Origin: Balnearium lithotrophicum
Lineage (GTDB): Bacteria; Aquificota; Aquificia; Desulfurobacteriales; Desulfurobacteriaceae
NCBI RefSeq assembly: GCF_900182585.1
Contig: NZ_FXTM01000014.1
Location: 1 to 50,701 of the forward strand
Direction: 5' to 3'
Length of the DNA stretch: 50,701 nt
The translations under genes and the position numbers were made by a program. Within the stretch, counting starts at the first letter, position 1, and each line of letters begins with the position of its first letter. This document shows, in pieces, positions 15,569 through 23,583 of the stretch. The notes below the pieces were generated by a model. The model saw only the letters and a program-made list of their open reading frames with translations. It was not told the origin of the DNA and did not search any database.

Positions 15569-16561
15569 TCAGAGGGGTAGTTTCTTGATAGCTTCCTGTA
15601 GGTGTTGAGGAGCTAAATGAGCGTAAATTTCAGTTGTTTTGTAGCTTGTATGCCCTAATAACTCTTGAACTGTTTTTAAATCAACCCCTGACATTACCAT
15701 TAGAGAGGCAAATGTATGCCTTAAATCATGAACTCTTAACTCTGGAAATCCTGCCTTCCTAAAGTATTCCTTTAGCCTGTGCTCTATGTGGTCTCGGCTG
15801 TAAGGAATAACCTTCCCAATTGCAGGATAACGTTTAAGGAGCTCCTTTCTGAGGTTAGGATGAATAGGTATAACTCTCGTTTGGAAGTTCTTTGACTTTC
15901 TAACGGTAATCAGGCCCCTCTCTAAGTCAACATCCTTCCAATATAGCCTTACGGCTTCTCCTATTCTCATACCGGTATAGATGAGGAAACGGAAGATGAA
16001 TAACCACTCCTCCCTGTCTATAACTTCCTCCACTTTAGCTATATCCTGAGGTAGGAGAAATCTTGGAGGCTTCTGCTGAACTTTAAGCTGTTTATATCCC
16101 TTCATAGGATTTTCTTTTATGTATTCCCACTCTACGGCCTTTGAGAGAGCCGATTTCAAGGTTCTAATGTGAACGTTAACGGTTACTTTGGAGAGGCCAC
16201 ATTCAAGAAGGTGATTAACGTATTCATCTACATTCCTTTTCGTTATCGCCGATAGATATAAATCTCCTACCACTTCTCTAAATCTGTTTAGAACGTGCCT
16301 TGCCTTAGTGAAGGTCTCCTCTGAGCGGTTATTTTTAGCCCAGTCTAAATATTCTTGAGTAAACTGAGACAGGGGGACTCTGATTCCCTCTTTAAGAACT
16401 ATCAATTTACCCTTCAGGTATTCTCTCTTTAGCTTGTTGTAAATCCTAATAGCCTCCGCCTTGTTACGGGTGCGGAGGCTCTTTTTCTTCCCTCTCTCAA
16501 ATTCTACATACCAGACGCCGTTTTCTCTCTGAAATAGCCTCATACTGATATTAAACTTCAT
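15569..16561 (-). CDS. int: Phage tyrosine integrase
   Basis: Site-specific recombinase for prophage integration and excision. The 330-residue protein has an N-terminal arm-binding region (about 1-60), a SAM-like core-binding domain (about 65-155) and the catalytic domain. Catalytic residues are visible: R199 (TGMRIGEA), H278 and R281 (HDLRHTFA), H304 (LGHTSYKTT) and the nucleophile Y313 (IYAH). All look intact. Its 3' end lies 70 bp from the tRNA-Leu fragment, as expected for an att-proximal integrase. Its start meets the stop of the small HTH gene upstream, a likely Xis. Confidence 0.95.
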   Translation of the reverse strand: MKFNISMRLFQRENGVWYVEFERGKKKSLRTRNKAEAIRIYNKLKREYLKGKLIVLKEGIRVPLSQFTQEYLDWAKNNRSEETFTKARHVLNRFREVVGDLYLSAITKRNVDEYVNHLLECGLSKVTVNVHIRTLKSALSKAVEWEYIKENPMKGYKQLKVQQKPPRFLLPQDIAKVEEVIDREEWLFIFRFLIYTGMRIGEAVRLYWKDVDLERGLITVRKSKNFQTRVIPIHPNLRKELLKRYPAIGKVIPYSRDHIEHRLKEYFRKAGFPELRVHDLRHTFASLMVMSGVDLKTVQELLGHTSYKTTEIYAHLAPQHLQEAIKKLPL

Positions 16562-16761
16562 TATTTGACCTCATGCAAGAGAAGTTCCTCTTTTAATGAA
16601 TCTTCTCCTAAGAAAGCGTCTATACTTTCCCTGTCCCAGAGCCACTTGTTGCCAATCTTTTTGGCTGAAATGAGACCTTCGAGATAACGCTTTTTGAGGG
16701 TTTTAAAACAAAGATTGCTGTATTTTTCAGCTTCTTTCGTAGTTAGCCAACGTTTTTTCAT
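16561..16761 (-). CDS. Small HTH protein, candidate excisionase
   Basis: A 66-residue protein with the pattern WLTTKEAEKYSNLCFKTLKKRYLEGLISAKKIGNKWLWDRE, split here only for description. It matches the winged-helix MerR/excisionase-like fold: T-x-x-E-A, then a turn, then a wing with K-I-G-N-K-W-L. It is immediately upstream of int with touching start and stop, the usual place for xis. The function is inferred from fold and position. A second HTH gene at 17304-17501 is an alternative candidate. Confidence 0.7.
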   Translation of the reverse strand: MKKRWLTTKEAEKYSNLCFKTLKKRYLEGLISAKKIGNKWLWDRESIDAFLGEDSLKEELLLHEVK

Positions 16762-16827
16762 TAGACAGCCTCCCTTTAAGGTTTTAGGGAAGCCGAACAG
16801 GGGGACGGGCGGGGAGAGAAAGAGGGA

Positions 16828-18408: not shown

Positions 18409-18546
18409 TCAATTAGGTTCTTTTACAACTTCCTTCCAACAAAACAAAAACAAATCAAGCTCAGCAATATCATCTTCTGTTAGTTCAAAAGCTCCTTTCT
18501 TTCTTATGTTCTCCCAAATATCAGCTATTTCGTAGATAGAGGCCAT
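18409..18546 (-). CDS. Small hypothetical protein coupled to thyX
   Basis: A 45-residue acidic protein beginning MASIYEIADIWENIRKK. Its ATG (18544-18546) overlaps the thyX stop (TAATG), and it ends at 18409, next to the antirepressor terminator. It is the last gene of the early minus-strand operon. No family recognised. Tight coupling is the main support. Confidence 0.5.
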   Translation of the reverse strand: MASIYEIADIWENIRKKGAFELTEDDIAELDLFLFCWKEVVKEPN

Positions 18547-19418
18547 TATTCCTCCAAAAATTCCCTTTTAAACCACTCCGCTCTTTTCTGCCTTGCTGGG
18601 GTGAAAATCGGATTACAATCCTCAACCCATCTATCAAGGTAATCAGCCATCATCTTAACGATTTCAGGTTGATGTTCTTTTAATAAGTTCCACATAGATT
18701 TTGCTACAAGCCTTGTCTCCTCTTGAGCTTCGGGATGCAAACGGTGAATAAAGAAATTCAGCCAAGCCCTGTAATCTCCCTGCATCCAGAATTGAGTATA
18801 GAGACCTAACGGAAGGAATGCACGGGCTTGTTCGGGTTCCCAACCTTCAGTTATAAGTTGCTCATAGGCCATCTCCCCCATCATACAAGAACCTATCCTA
18901 ATGTCTGGATGAATAATAGCTTCCCTCCCCAGCCAACAAAAGAACTTCACCTTATTTCCCTTCACATACCGCCTGCTCATTTCCATATAGGAAAAAGCCC
19001 TGTGTCTTTGAATTTGACGGGCTACGAAAATCGGAACTTTGAGCTTAAAGGTAGCAAAAAACCTTTTGTTTATACTAATAGAAGATGAGATATAACTGTC
19101 ATGATCCTGATTGAATTCCTTGATAGCCTTCTCCCAATTTATGTAATCACTATTTCTTAAATCTCCAACATCCCAACACCTCACAAACTCAAACGGACTT
19201 TCATGTCCCCGCTCAATCAGCAAGTTCCAGAGCCTATCAGGGTCTTTGCAGTATTCGTTTCCGTAAGAAATAGAAGCTACGAGACAAACGGCTTCTTTCC
19301 TACTTTCCTCATTTTCGTTAGCCTTGGAGAAGTCCCAGAGCACCACCTTACAGATTGGCGGTTCCTCGTAATCGTAAGGAAATTTCTCGGCAACTTTGTG
19401 GATATATTTAAGTTTCAT
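18546..19418 (-). CDS. thyX: FAD-dependent thymidylate synthase ThyX
   Basis: Makes dTMP from dUMP using flavin and methylene-tetrahydrofolate. The ThyX motif RHRx7S is visible at R138-H139-R140 to S148 (RHRAFSYMEMSRR), with the nearby ESPFEFV helix and RLHPEAQEETR near the C-terminus. At 290 residues it is longer than the usual 220-250, as in some phage forms. Together with dut in the same operon it would direct uracil nucleotides into phage DNA synthesis. It overlaps the wHTH gene upstream by 11 bases. Confidence 0.92.
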   Translation of the reverse strand: MKLKYIHKVAEKFPYDYEEPPICKVVLWDFSKANENEESRKEAVCLVASISYGNEYCKDPDRLWNLLIERGHESPFEFVRCWDVGDLRNSDYINWEKAIKEFNQDHDSYISSSISINKRFFATFKLKVPIFVARQIQRHRAFSYMEMSRRYVKGNKVKFFCWLGREAIIHPDIRIGSCMMGEMAYEQLITEGWEPEQARAFLPLGLYTQFWMQGDYRAWLNFFIHRLHPEAQEETRLVAKSMWNLLKEHQPEIVKMMADYLDRWVEDCNPIFTPARQKRAEWFKREFLEE

Positions 19419-20195: not shown

Positions 20196-20570
20196 TTAAA
20201 ATTCGATGTCGTCAGGCGGTTCCTCTTCAGTTGTTTCTTCCTTTCTTGCATCCAACGGGCTGAACTTGTCTGCCCTAATCTCAATCTTGCTTCTGTTTTC
20301 TCCACTTTCAGTTTTCCAGGTTGACTGCCTTAGACTTCCTTCAACCAAAACCCTGTCTCCCTTGTTGAACCTGCTAACTGTCCAATCTGCTAAATTGCCC
20401 CATAAAACCACGTCTATAAATACAGGGTCTTCTTTCCACTCTCTGTTTTTGTCTTTGTATGGATTGTTGACGGCTACCCTGATTCGGGAGAATGGAGTTC
20501 CATTAGAGGTGTGTTGAAGCTCTGGGTCAGCAACTAAGCGACCGATAAGAAAAACTTTGTTTAAGTTCAT
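20196..20570 (-). CDS. ssb: Single-stranded DNA-binding protein
   Basis: A 124-residue SSB. The OB-fold N-terminus MNLNKVFLIGRLVADPELQ, then FSRIRVAVNNPY and the L45-type segments VDVVLWGNLAD and KGDRVLVEGSLRQSTW, are plain. The acidic tip PPDDIEF is the conserved docking tail for partner proteins such as recombinases and helicases. It lies next to the Bet annealase, the usual phage pairing. The shorter linker makes it smaller than host SSB (about 150-180). Confidence 0.93.
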   Translation of the reverse strand: MNLNKVFLIGRLVADPELQHTSNGTPFSRIRVAVNNPYKDKNREWKEDPVFIDVVLWGNLADWTVSRFNKGDRVLVEGSLRQSTWKTESGENRSKIEIRADKFSPLDARKEETTEEEPPDDIEF

Positions 20571-20641
20571 GATTTCCTCCAGAAAATTTAAAGAATGAAA
20601 AAGAGAGCTCCACTAAGGGAGTGGAAGACCTTAGAGAGCTG

Positions 20642-21571
20642 CTAAGGGAGTTCTATTGGAGCTTCTTCCTTAACTCTATTAGTCAGTTCTTTGGCTTCCG
20701 GATACTTAATATCATCTAAAGACTTGCTTAATTCATATTCAGGGTCAATTCCTAACTCCATTATTTTCTTTCTCCACCTTTCCTTGGCTTCTTTGATTAC
20801 CTCGATAGCTTCCTCTTTTGTTAACTGCTTAGAGGATTCCTTGCCGAATTTCTCTCTGATGTAGCTCTTATAGTCAAATTCAGCCAATCCAGACCAGGAA
20901 TGAATTCCTTTTATGTATTTCCTGTCTAATTCAATTTTGCTATTCTCAACAGGCTTGGTATTAAGCACTTCCCCAGTTTCCTCATCTATTTCAACTCCCA
21001 TTTCCTCTGCTACGTACATTCCGGACATTTCACTCGGAAATGCCTCACGAAGAGCCTGAACGAGAGCAACTTTTCTAATCATTGTTGCAGGCATAGTTGC
21101 CCAGTTGCTCATTAACTTCCCGTCTTTCGTCTTGCGAGCATATTCCTCAATCGCCACTTCAGTGCGTATAGGGTGATTAAAATCTTTTCTGTAAACCTCA
21201 GCCCAGCCGCCAACAAGTTCCTCCTTGCTCTTGATGTAAAAAGCTCCGTTTCTATACGTAACTTCTCCTGTATCTCTGTTAACCGTAATAACTCCTGCTT
21301 TGTAACCATCTAACTGCTTTGAACGTTCAGCACGTTTAAGAAAAGCATCTTTTCCAACAACTATTACAGGCTGAGAGTTGCCGTATTTGATGAAGTGAAC
21401 ATCATAGGGAGATAAGCTCCTTAATTTGCAGTAGTTAAAGAACTCTTCTATTTCCTCCTGTTTTGCATTAGGAGCGTGATATTTGACGTAAGTAGCTACC
21501 TCGTCAAAGGTATATGTTCTTCCATCTTCTGCTACAATAATTTTTGGACTTTCAATAACTGCTTTTGCCAT
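20642..21571 (-). CDS. bet: RecT/Bet-type single-strand annealing protein
   Basis: A 309-residue phage recombination protein of the Bet family. Key segments are EEFFNYCKLRSLSPYDVHFIKYGNSQP (described in two parts: a helix, then S-P-Y-D), VVGKDAFLKRAE, the YRKDFNHPIRTEV strand and PATMIRKVALVQALREAFP. These match the annealase core of Bet and RecT. It would anneal single strands during phage recombination with the neighbouring SSB. No partner exonuclease (Exo/RecE) is visible in the window. The C-terminal about 80 residues are charged, probably linked to SSB or DNA binding. Confidence 0.88.
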   Translation of the reverse strand: MAKAVIESPKIIVAEDGRTYTFDEVATYVKYHAPNAKQEEIEEFFNYCKLRSLSPYDVHFIKYGNSQPVIVVGKDAFLKRAERSKQLDGYKAGVITVNRDTGEVTYRNGAFYIKSKEELVGGWAEVYRKDFNHPIRTEVAIEEYARKTKDGKLMSNWATMPATMIRKVALVQALREAFPSEMSGMYVAEEMGVEIDEETGEVLNTKPVENSKIELDRKYIKGIHSWSGLAEFDYKSYIREKFGKESSKQLTKEEAIEVIKEAKERWRKKIMELGIDPEYELSKSLDDIKYPEAKELTNRVKEEAPIELP

Positions 21572-21583
21572 AACTTCCTCCTT

Positions 21584-22027
21584 TTATTTATTTCCGCTAC
21601 TCCCGAAACCGCCCTCTCCTCTATTGGTTTCGGTTAGTTCTTCAACCTCAATAACCTGAAAATCTGAAACGGGAACAGGAACTAATTGAGCTATCTTTTC
21701 GCCTTTTTCTATTCTCTGTTCCCGTCCTGAAAGGTTAGCCAGAGCAACGATGATTTCTCCTCTGTAGCCGTTATCAATTACTCCAGCAACCACATGGAGT
21801 AATCTTCTTGTTGCCACACTTGAACGGTCTTTGATGAAAGCTCCCCAACCTCTTGGAAGCTCAACAGCTATTCCTGTTCTAACCTTCACAACGGGTATTC
21901 CGCCATTTTCATTAACAGTTGGGATAACTACATCTTCAAGAGCATACAGGTCAAAACCTAAGTCTCCCTCGTAAGCTCTTGTTGGTAGTTTTGTATCTGG
22001 ATGCAGGCGTTTACACTTCACGTTCAA
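21584..22027 (-). CDS. dut: dUTPase
   Basis: Trimeric dUTP pyrophosphatase, keeping uracil out of phage DNA and supplying dUMP to ThyX. All five motifs can be seen: GDLGFDLYA (1), KDRSSVATR (2), GVIDNGYRGEI (3), GEKIAQLVPV (4) and the C-terminal RGEGGFGSSG (5). At 147 residues it is the standard length. It lies between the Bet gene and small genes in the early operon. Confidence 0.95.
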   Translation of the reverse strand: MNVKCKRLHPDTKLPTRAYEGDLGFDLYALEDVVIPTVNENGGIPVVKVRTGIAVELPRGWGAFIKDRSSVATRRLLHVVAGVIDNGYRGEIIVALANLSGREQRIEKGEKIAQLVPVPVSDFQVIEVEELTETNRGEGGFGSSGNK

Positions 22028-22263: not shown

Positions 22264-22284
22264 GAGAGGGCTTTAGGCCCTCTC
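22264..22284 (-). other. mRNA hairpin enclosing a stop codon
   Basis: GAGAGGGC (22264-22271) pairs with GCCCTCTC (22277-22284) around a five-base loop. The TAA of the gene at 22273 lies in the loop/stem edge. No T run follows on the minus strand, so this looks like an intercistronic hairpin that could stabilise or attenuate the mRNA rather than a full terminator. Confidence 0.5.
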
Positions 22285-22506
22285 AAGGGTTTGTTCTTCT
22301 ATCCTTGCTATTGTTTCTGCAAGTCTGAGAAGCTCTTTCTGAGCTTCTTCTTTTAGGTCAAAAAGAGCATAAGTGTATTTACCTCCTCCTCTTGTTCTGA
22401 TAAGCACACGGTATTTCTTCACATCAACATCTTTGGTTACCGAAATAGCCTCTATTTCGGTTATTTTGATAAGAGTTCCCTTGTTAGTCTCTATCCACGG
22501 CCACAT
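22273..22506 (-). CDS. Small hypothetical protein
   Basis: A 77-residue protein beginning MWPWIETNKGTLIKITEIEA with strands YRVLIRTRGGGKYTYALFD and a C-terminal helix. The N-terminal half could be a small beta sheet (as in several phage beta-strand proteins of the DUF-type found in early operons). No firm family. It follows the gene at 22508 by one base. Confidence 0.5.
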   Translation of the reverse strand: MWPWIETNKGTLIKITEIEAISVTKDVDVKKYRVLIRTRGGGKYTYALFDLKEEAQKELLRLAETIARIEEQTLERA

Positions 22507-22507
22507 C

Positions 22508-22705
22508 TCACACCTCCCATAAAGTTCCGTATCTAATTGCTCTTTCTAAGAGGTCGGAAAAGGGACTTTCCACTTCCCCGTAAGGTTCATATCTTCTATC
22601 GTCCCAGACTTCTTCCGGTTCTGCTTTTCTTTCCTCGTCTTCGGGGAGCCATAACTCTGGCTCCCCCATCATTTTGTCAATCCAAGAAGAGTCGTAAACT
22701 TCCAT
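22508..22705 (-). CDS. Small acidic protein, first gene of the early operon
   Basis: A 65-residue acidic protein (MEVYDSSWIDKMMGEPELW...). A GGAGGTGAG ribosome site precedes the ATG. It is the first gene after the promoter at 22881-22909 and the structured leader at 22737-22826. No family recognised. Acidic phage proteins at this position often inhibit host enzymes; that is only a possibility here. Confidence 0.55.
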   Translation of the reverse strand: MEVYDSSWIDKMMGEPELWLPEDEERKAEPEEVWDDRRYEPYGEVESPFSDLLERAIRYGTLWEV

Positions 22706-22736
22706 GGCTCACCTCCATAAGTTTTCTCTCCCTTTA

Positions 22737-22826
22737 GGAGCAGAGTCCGTTTACAGAGGGCTTGTTAACCCTCACCGGGCTACGTGCACCCGGCCGGTCT
22801 TCGGGAGTTACCCCTACTCCTGCTCC
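22737..22826 (-). ncRNA. Structured RNA leader with cloverleaf-like fold
   Basis: Within a GC-rich island in AT-rich surroundings, the minus strand can fold into a four-way junction. P1 pairs GGAGCAG (22826-22820) with CTGCTCC (22743-22737). P2 is GGAGT/ACTCC (22820-22816 with 22808-22804, 7-nt loop), P3 CCGGG/CCCGG (22793-22789 with 22779-22775, 9-nt loop), and P4 GAGGG/CCCTC (22773-22769 with 22760-22756, 8-nt loop). P3 and P4 are separated by a single base. The innermost base of P1 and P2 compete for C22820. A 12-nt single strand, TGTAAACGGACT, follows P4. The element lies in the 5' leader of the early operon. It has no T-loop consensus, so it is not a tRNA. Confidence 0.55.
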
Positions 22827-22874
22827 CCGCCCGTTACCCCCTATTCGGCTGTCAAAGAGCTTTCTCAAGCGTCT

Positions 22875-22938
22875 GCTTTAATAATAAAGCGTATGGATGA
22901 AAATGTCAAGTCTTTTGCTTTAGTTTTTAAAGCAAAAG
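22875..22938 (-). promoter_or_regulatory. Early operon promoter with paired GCTTTA/TAAAGC operators
   Basis: On the minus strand TTGACA (22909-22904), a 17-bp spacer and TATTAT (22886-22881) form a strong promoter reading toward 22705. A perfect 11-bp-armed inverted repeat, CTTTTGCTTTA-5-TAAAGCAAAAG (22912-22938), sits just upstream of the -35, and GCTTTA-4-TAAAGC (22875-22890) covers the -10. The same half-site occurs at the repressor/Cro promoter near 33.1 kb, suggesting repressor control. Confidence 0.7.
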
Positions 22939-23525: not shown

Positions 23526-23583
23526 CTTCACCTCCCAAGTTTTTATTCCACAACGTTCAGATAAAAAAGGGCAGGGACTACCC

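Follow-up and report, generated by a model that had tools for sequence, protein, structure and literature searches.

A cloverleaf RNA leader with an rRNA-operon-type boxA heads a prophage early operon and probably serves in antitermination

The early operon of a prophage in the window (the whole stretch of 50,701 nt analysed here, which makes up contig 14 in a genome of 1.73 Mb) begins with a structured RNA leader. According to its rRNA, CRISPR and prophage relationships, the host belongs among Aquificota-like thermophiles, probably in the family Desulfurobacteriaceae. This leader is probably an rrn-type (NusB/S10) processive antitermination leader of a pL-like operon. It joins a boxA of the kind found in the host's rRNA operons to a cloverleaf-like fold, which, according to its covariation among homologous sequences, is a defined new RNA family. 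The phage probably borrows the ribosomal-RNA transcription machinery of its host.

The early operon and its promoter

The prophage extends from the integrase gene (15569) to the end of the contig, and it matches the IMG/VR contig 2724679708_000004. The leader element is located on the minus strand from 22863 to 22736 and heads an operon of the lambda-pL kind. The order of the genes, all on the minus strand, is as follows: small ORFs, dUTPase (21584–22027), RecT (20642–21571), SSB (20196–20570), ThyX (18546–19418), the excisionase-like xis (16561–16761) and integrase (15569–16561). The first early ORF (22508–22705) encodes 65 aa and belongs to no family. The next (22273–22506) encodes a small protein of 77 aa, which is present in all five phages that carry the leader described below. 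Its AF2 model has a pLDDT of 90, and a β-sheet with a C-terminal helix is predicted; the fold search gave weak and uninformative matches, to uncharacterised phage proteins only. Within the operon, a terminator-like hairpin with a U-run is present on the minus strand between recT and ssb (20598–20640, z −3.4).

The promoter TTGACA-17-TATTAT (22881–22909, minus strand) has its −35 box at 22909–22904 and its −10 box at 22886–22881, and 11 of the 12 letters agree with the consensus. The palindrome GCTTTATTATTAAAGC (22890–22875) overlaps the −10 box. Upstream of the −35 box, an 11-bp inverted repeat CTTTTGCTTTA/TAAAGCAAAAG (22912–22938, assigned to neither strand) has exact arms by pattern search, and is a probable repressor operator. 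The motif GCTTTA/TAAAGC is common to the inverted repeats that flank (22938–22912) and overlap (22890–22875) the early promoter, and a half-site of the 11-bp repeat is also found near a CI-like repressor gene (33158–33148). These repeats and the half-site are probable candidates for repressor operators.

A single marginal match to CRISPR-DR43 was observed at 23539–23567 (plus strand) of the window, with 35.6 bits at a cut-off of 35 and an E value of 0.033; this one isolated copy is probably due to chance. Other related prophage remnants are present in the same genome (G000:C42, locus L048, and G000:C1:70075), with RecT 51% and integrase 65% identical. The former, a second RecT prophage remnant on a 3.3-kb contig, is without the leader.

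Homologous leaders

Four complete homologues of the leader were found. A DNA search of relatives gave a leader of 75% identity in another genus, in a second Desulfurobacteriaceae-type prophage (G011). A scan of viral contigs for the extended boxA gave 25 stretches, among which those of three IMG/VR phages (L177, L178 and L184) comprise the complete leader with its cloverleaf. In all five leaders the order is constant: promoter, boxA, cloverleaf and an early operon of dut, recombination and thyX genes. TTGACA-17-TATWWT (TATATT or TATTAT) is present in 5/5, and boxA begins 13–20 nt 3′ of the −10 box. Homologous early genes follow in every case (for the IMG/VR phages, dUTPase 65–69% and ThyX 60–66% identity).

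In the covariance searches, which covered 136 and 391 genomes, complete leaders are present only in the window and G011. The other strong matches are rrn leaders, which were matched through boxA, and the weaker ones (G002:C19, G010:C1 and others) were judged unconvincing. The INPHARED phage collection gave no match to the leader. Two pattern matches to P4 only were rejected: L095 is a chance match in a viral structural-gene region, and L146 (Sphingobacterium) is one match where about one is expected by chance for 20 fixed bases. In the G011 phage, the leader is separated from the early genes by a gene of opposite orientation (L031:3522-4163, plus strand); the early transcript of this phage must therefore cross it antisense.

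Structure of the leader RNA

The predicted fold lies entirely 3′ of boxA and consists of a closing stem P1 and three hairpins, P2, P3 and P4. On the minus strand, the 5′ arm of P1 is GGGAGCAG (22820–22827), which overlaps the strand for long-range pairing described below, and the 3′ arm is CUGCUCCU (22736–22743). P2 is the hairpin GGGGUAACUCCC (22803–22814). P3 (GCCGGG...CCCGGU, 22774–22794) and P4 (GAGGGUUAACAAGCCCUC, 22756–22773) abut, and both are enclosed by a short helix P5 with the 5′ strand CCG (22795–22797) and the 3′ strand CGG (22747–22749). P4 is the most conserved part. P3 is kept as a hairpin of 4–8 bp, the sequence of which is unrelated among the leaders.

The P1 arms of the five leaders are GGGAGCAG/CUGCUCCU, GGGAACAG/CUGUUCCC, GCCAGAGG/CCUCUGGU, ACCAGAGG/CCUCUGGU and GCCAGAGC/GCUUUGGG. 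Changes on both sides are found at 6/8 pairs in the five-leader count, and at 7/8 in the hand alignment. P5 (CCN/NGG) also covaries, as CCG/CGG, CCA/UGG and CCG/UGG. P2 (GGGUUAANAGCCY) and P4 (GAGGGUURNCAAGCCCU) are alike and nearly invariant. In the five leaders, two of which (L177 and L178) are near-identical, 95.2% of the pair cells are paired versus 84.5% in shuffles, and both-side changes occur at 11 pairs versus 4.9. The covariation score (n = 5 leaders) is 0.473; shuffled alignments score 0.235 (the observed value being reached in 0/500), and slid structures score no more than 0.139. The alignment made with the covariance model is biased in favour of the structure of that model; the hand alignment is free of this bias, but comprises few sequences.

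The leader folds only a little more stably than shuffled sequences (z −0.7 to −1.4 for longer stretches, and −2.15 for P1–P4), and thus the homologues were needed. When the full leader was folded without constraints, the result was not significant (z −1.0 and −0.7), and energy was therefore not relied on by itself. The unconstrained minimum shows the cloverleaf topology in three folds, namely those of G011, L184 and the isolated window element. According to the compensatory mutations, which comparison of the sequences places in four or five phage lineages, the structure is real.

The original prediction for this DNA had described a strong promoter followed by a closing stem and three hairpins, and the promoter and the five homologous leaders bear this out. 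Compensatory changes in homologues had been set as the test, and P1 supplies them. The RNA was also correctly held not to be a tRNA, as ARAGORN finds none, and to fit no known family: in Rfam 15, no family lies above the gathering threshold for the leader. A repeated motif, TAGGGG(G)TAAC, fared less evenly. The copy in P2 is conserved as GGGUUAANAGCC and resembles the P4 hairpin, whereas the upstream copy (22845–22835) consists of the boxA extension GAAUAGGGG and, after it, lineage-specific sequence.

The boxA module

A perfect boxA, GCUCUUUGACA (22850–22860, minus strand), is located 20 nt past the end of the −10 box. It is trailed by the extension GAAUAGGGG; the extension sequence GAAUAGGGGG (22837–22846, minus strand) is common to rrn leaders. 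The same boxA-plus-extension module is present in the host's own rRNA operons. A search of the host genome for the 24-nt module with up to three mismatches gave three sites: the prophage, the region upstream of 16S and the 16S–23S spacer, the adjacent rRNAs being confirmed by Rfam. The module of the window has 2–3 mismatches in 24 to the boxA modules of the rrn leader and spacer in the host, and that of the G011 phage is identical to the rrn leader of G016 over all 24 nt. The reversed boxA pattern gave 0 matches in 61 genomes. In the alignment of the window and G011 leaders, the invariant AAAGCTCTTTGACA just past the start site is followed by GAATARGGGG, and boxA itself is unchanged in 5/5 leaders. 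In other genera of the family, the extended boxA is a mark of rrn leaders and apparently also of CRISPR leaders. The host has genes for both NusB and RNase III.

Predicted pairing of the leader with the xis 5′ UTR

The leader strand 22850–22823 recurs inverted at 16791–16816. The xis 5′ UTR of the same transcript is thus complementary to the leader. The UTR strand CUCCCCGCCCGUCCCCCUGUUCGGCU (16791–16816, minus strand) takes the position of a trailer, and the leader strand (22823–22850, minus strand) is the counterpart of the leader strand in the rrn leader–trailer pairing. A 10-bp hairpin (16766–16795, minus strand, z −3.8) encloses the xis Shine–Dalgarno sequence AGGGAGG, and the same arms are present in G001. 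The leader–UTR helix would invade this hairpin.

The distance from the leader to the xis 5′ UTR is 6 kb in the window and 4 kb in G011. The window duplex has an energy of −61 kcal/mol, compared with −45 kcal/mol for the next-best non-self site in the window, and with a mean of −34.8 and a best of −43.3 kcal/mol for shuffled leaders. In G011, the xis UTR CCGCCCCCUUAUUC is the exact complement of the phage's own leader GAAUAAGGGGGCGG. The longest complementary runs are 12 nt within the window and 14 nt within G011, versus 6 and 7 nt for the crossed pairs, which points to cognate partners. The observed pairing was reached by 0/2000 shuffled UTRs in either phage. The G011 duplex (−38.7 kcal/mol) is barely beyond the next-best site of its contig (−37.3 kcal/mol), and so the argument for G011 is instead the exact complementarity over 14 nt and the place where it lies. 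In G001, where the UTR side alone is assembled, the UTR element is 90% conserved, and an extra gene is inserted between it and xis.

A comparable helix is present in the rRNA operons. The leader strand from boxA onwards forms a helix with the 16S trailer, the energy of which is −56.7 kcal/mol in the host genome (G000), and the corresponding values in G007 and G013 are −64 to −67 kcal/mol. In both systems a local leader stem overlaps the long-range strand: P1 in the phage and CCUGCGG in rrn. On these likenesses, the early transcript may be laid out like pre-rRNA. For the IMG/VR phages (G136, G137 and G138), no long-range partner above background was found in their contigs, and the boxA–P1 spacer is 24–28 nt versus 30–33 nt in the window and G011. 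These results indicate that the long-range helix is a lineage-specific addition and not part of the core element.

Proposed function and alternatives

In the proposed mechanism, NusB–S10 of the host, with NusA, NusG and probably SuhB, would bind the 5′-terminal boxA on its emergence, as on pre-rRNA. The boxA-bound complex would make RNA polymerase resistant to termination, and the polymerase would read through the operon including the hairpin between recT and ssb. The cloverleaf probably stabilises or completes the complex in cis, in place of lambda boxB and N. In the lineage of the window, G011 and G001, the boxA–P1 strand, held at the polymerase via boxA, would pair with the emerging xis UTR, displace P1 and cover the xis ribosome-binding site. 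The helix formed would offer a substrate to RNase III, by which xis–int could be split from the early genes.

The rrn complexes act mainly against Rho, and the hairpin within the early operon looks intrinsic, which counts against an rrn-type reading. In the rrn system, boxA is necessary and sufficient for the antitermination complex; boxC, which is located beside boxA and overlaps the RNase III site, starts the leader–trailer helix, and it is presumed to stay at the polymerase until the trailer appears (PMC10250234). The phage leader shares with the rrn boxB–boxA–boxC leader (rrnTAC) the 5′-terminal boxA with the host's extended sequence GAATARGGG, a local stem just 3′ of boxA that encloses one or more hairpins and, in the lineage of the window and G011, a leader strand with a complement far downstream. 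It differs in that it heads a phage early operon and its 'trailer' is an mRNA 5′ UTR; moreover, the phage fold (P1–P4 and P5) is a different and larger RNA, which is not evidently homologous in sequence to the stem of the rrn leader. The boxA leaders of CRISPR arrays and suhB are likewise cases of an rrn-type boxA reused outside rRNA, but no cloverleaf follows their boxA. At E. coli suhB, boxA represses (PMC5725501), and this second activity of boxA counts against the antitermination reading.

Well-studied phage antitermination uses either a phage protein at boxA/boxB, as for lambda N, or a factor-free RNA, as for put. Each of these has an unlikely counterpart here. The folded RNA itself might bind RNA polymerase without Nus proteins, with boxA accessory or vestigial. 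Like HK022 putL and putR, the leader is a compact, structured cis RNA with several hairpins directly after the early promoter, the hairpins are adjacent, and the family search found no N-like gene. HK022 put works without protein factors, but it comprises two stem-loops in about 70 nt, has no closing stem and does not require boxA (PMC9378689). The leader is instead a closed multi-branched fold in which the closing stem P1 is the best-supported helix, and boxA is invariant in 5/5 leaders and common to the host rrn. The likeness to put drawn in the original prediction is not the best comparison; the nearest relatives of the boxA module are the host rRNA operon leaders. The structured early-operon leader, perhaps for cis antitermination, that had been suggested holds; the rrn-type boxA just upstream had been missed.

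It is equally improbable that a phage-encoded antiterminator binds the leader RNA in the manner of lambda N at nut; a candidate would be the 77-aa protein (22273–22506). The layout of the operon is lambda-like, and as with nutL and nutR, a boxA leader directly follows the early promoter of a recombination–xis–int operon; in lambda, RNase III and long-distance control of int/xis are known. The hairpin GGGUUAANAGCCC is repeated in P2 and P4, as a protein might require, and the candidate protein is conserved with the leader. However, the PHROG and Pfam search of the early genes scanned gave no match to an arginine-rich N-like protein, N proteins being poorly conserved, and the predicted fold of the 77-aa protein has weak and uninformative matches only. 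Unlike lambda nut, the leader has an rrn-type boxA followed by a large covarying fold, and no conserved boxB hairpin with a purine loop adjoins boxA. A possible GCUU-GAGA-AAGC is seen just 5′ of boxA in the window only, and its loop is not kept in the G011 alignment.

Slightly less probable still is a main role in processing or antisense control, in which the pairing of the leader with the xis UTR controls xis/int and boxA is merely the 5′ end of the strand. The complementarity is strong, cognate and conserved, and the pairing covers the xis Shine–Dalgarno hairpin. Against this, the three other phages keep boxA and the cloverleaf, with the shorter spacer, where their contigs hold no comparable partner. 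The processing signal that had been proposed for the cloverleaf may exist through this pairing with the xis 5′ UTR, which lies outside the leader region for which it was suggested.

A riboswitch or attenuator, also proposed originally, is very improbable: the leader RNA is structured and conserved, but neither P1 nor P4 is followed by a U-run, the element has neither a terminator nor a sequestration switch (the Shine–Dalgarno sequence is unpaired with it), Rfam gave no match, and the operons behind the leaders are all phage early operons of one kind.

Returning to the rrn-type antitermination leader, a wider reading is suggested tentatively. In these thermophile phages, the early operon might be an mRNA version of pre-rRNA, with a host-identical boxA at its 5′ end, a phage-specific covarying domain where lambda has N/boxB and, in a single lineage, a 4–6 kb leader–trailer helix extending to the xis ribosome-binding site, through which antitermination and processing by RNase III would be tied to the decision between excision and integration. 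If this is true, phage early control is linked to rRNA transcription, and the leader is a small natural test of boxA and the leader–trailer helix outside ribosome assembly, roles which are left open for rrnTAC (PMC10250234). The cognate pairs of leader and xis UTR are suited to compensatory mutation, and the RNA family is suited to probing.

Extended boxA in other loci

Antitermination of CRISPR arrays by boxA is known. In L055 (G048:C1:1124933), a locus of this phylum, the same extended boxA adjoins the start of a CRISPR array, the repeats of which were read by eye, and this arrangement agrees with the known cases. The extended boxA of L053, L082 and L084–L087 is probably near repeat-containing loci like that of L055. 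The rrn-type extended boxA TCTTTGACANNNGAATARGG is present in more than 20 IMG/VR phage contigs, mostly outside same-strand ORFs; these include L163, L166, L167, L170, L172, L173, L175, L182 and L183. The use of rrn boxA by phages may be widespread. Most of these contigs are without the cloverleaf, and some have other strong hairpins downstream. In L183 (7500–7585, minus strand), a different element of 86 nt is located 3′ of boxA, with an 11-bp closing stem and a fold z of −5.0, and it is possibly a second, unrelated structured boxA leader.
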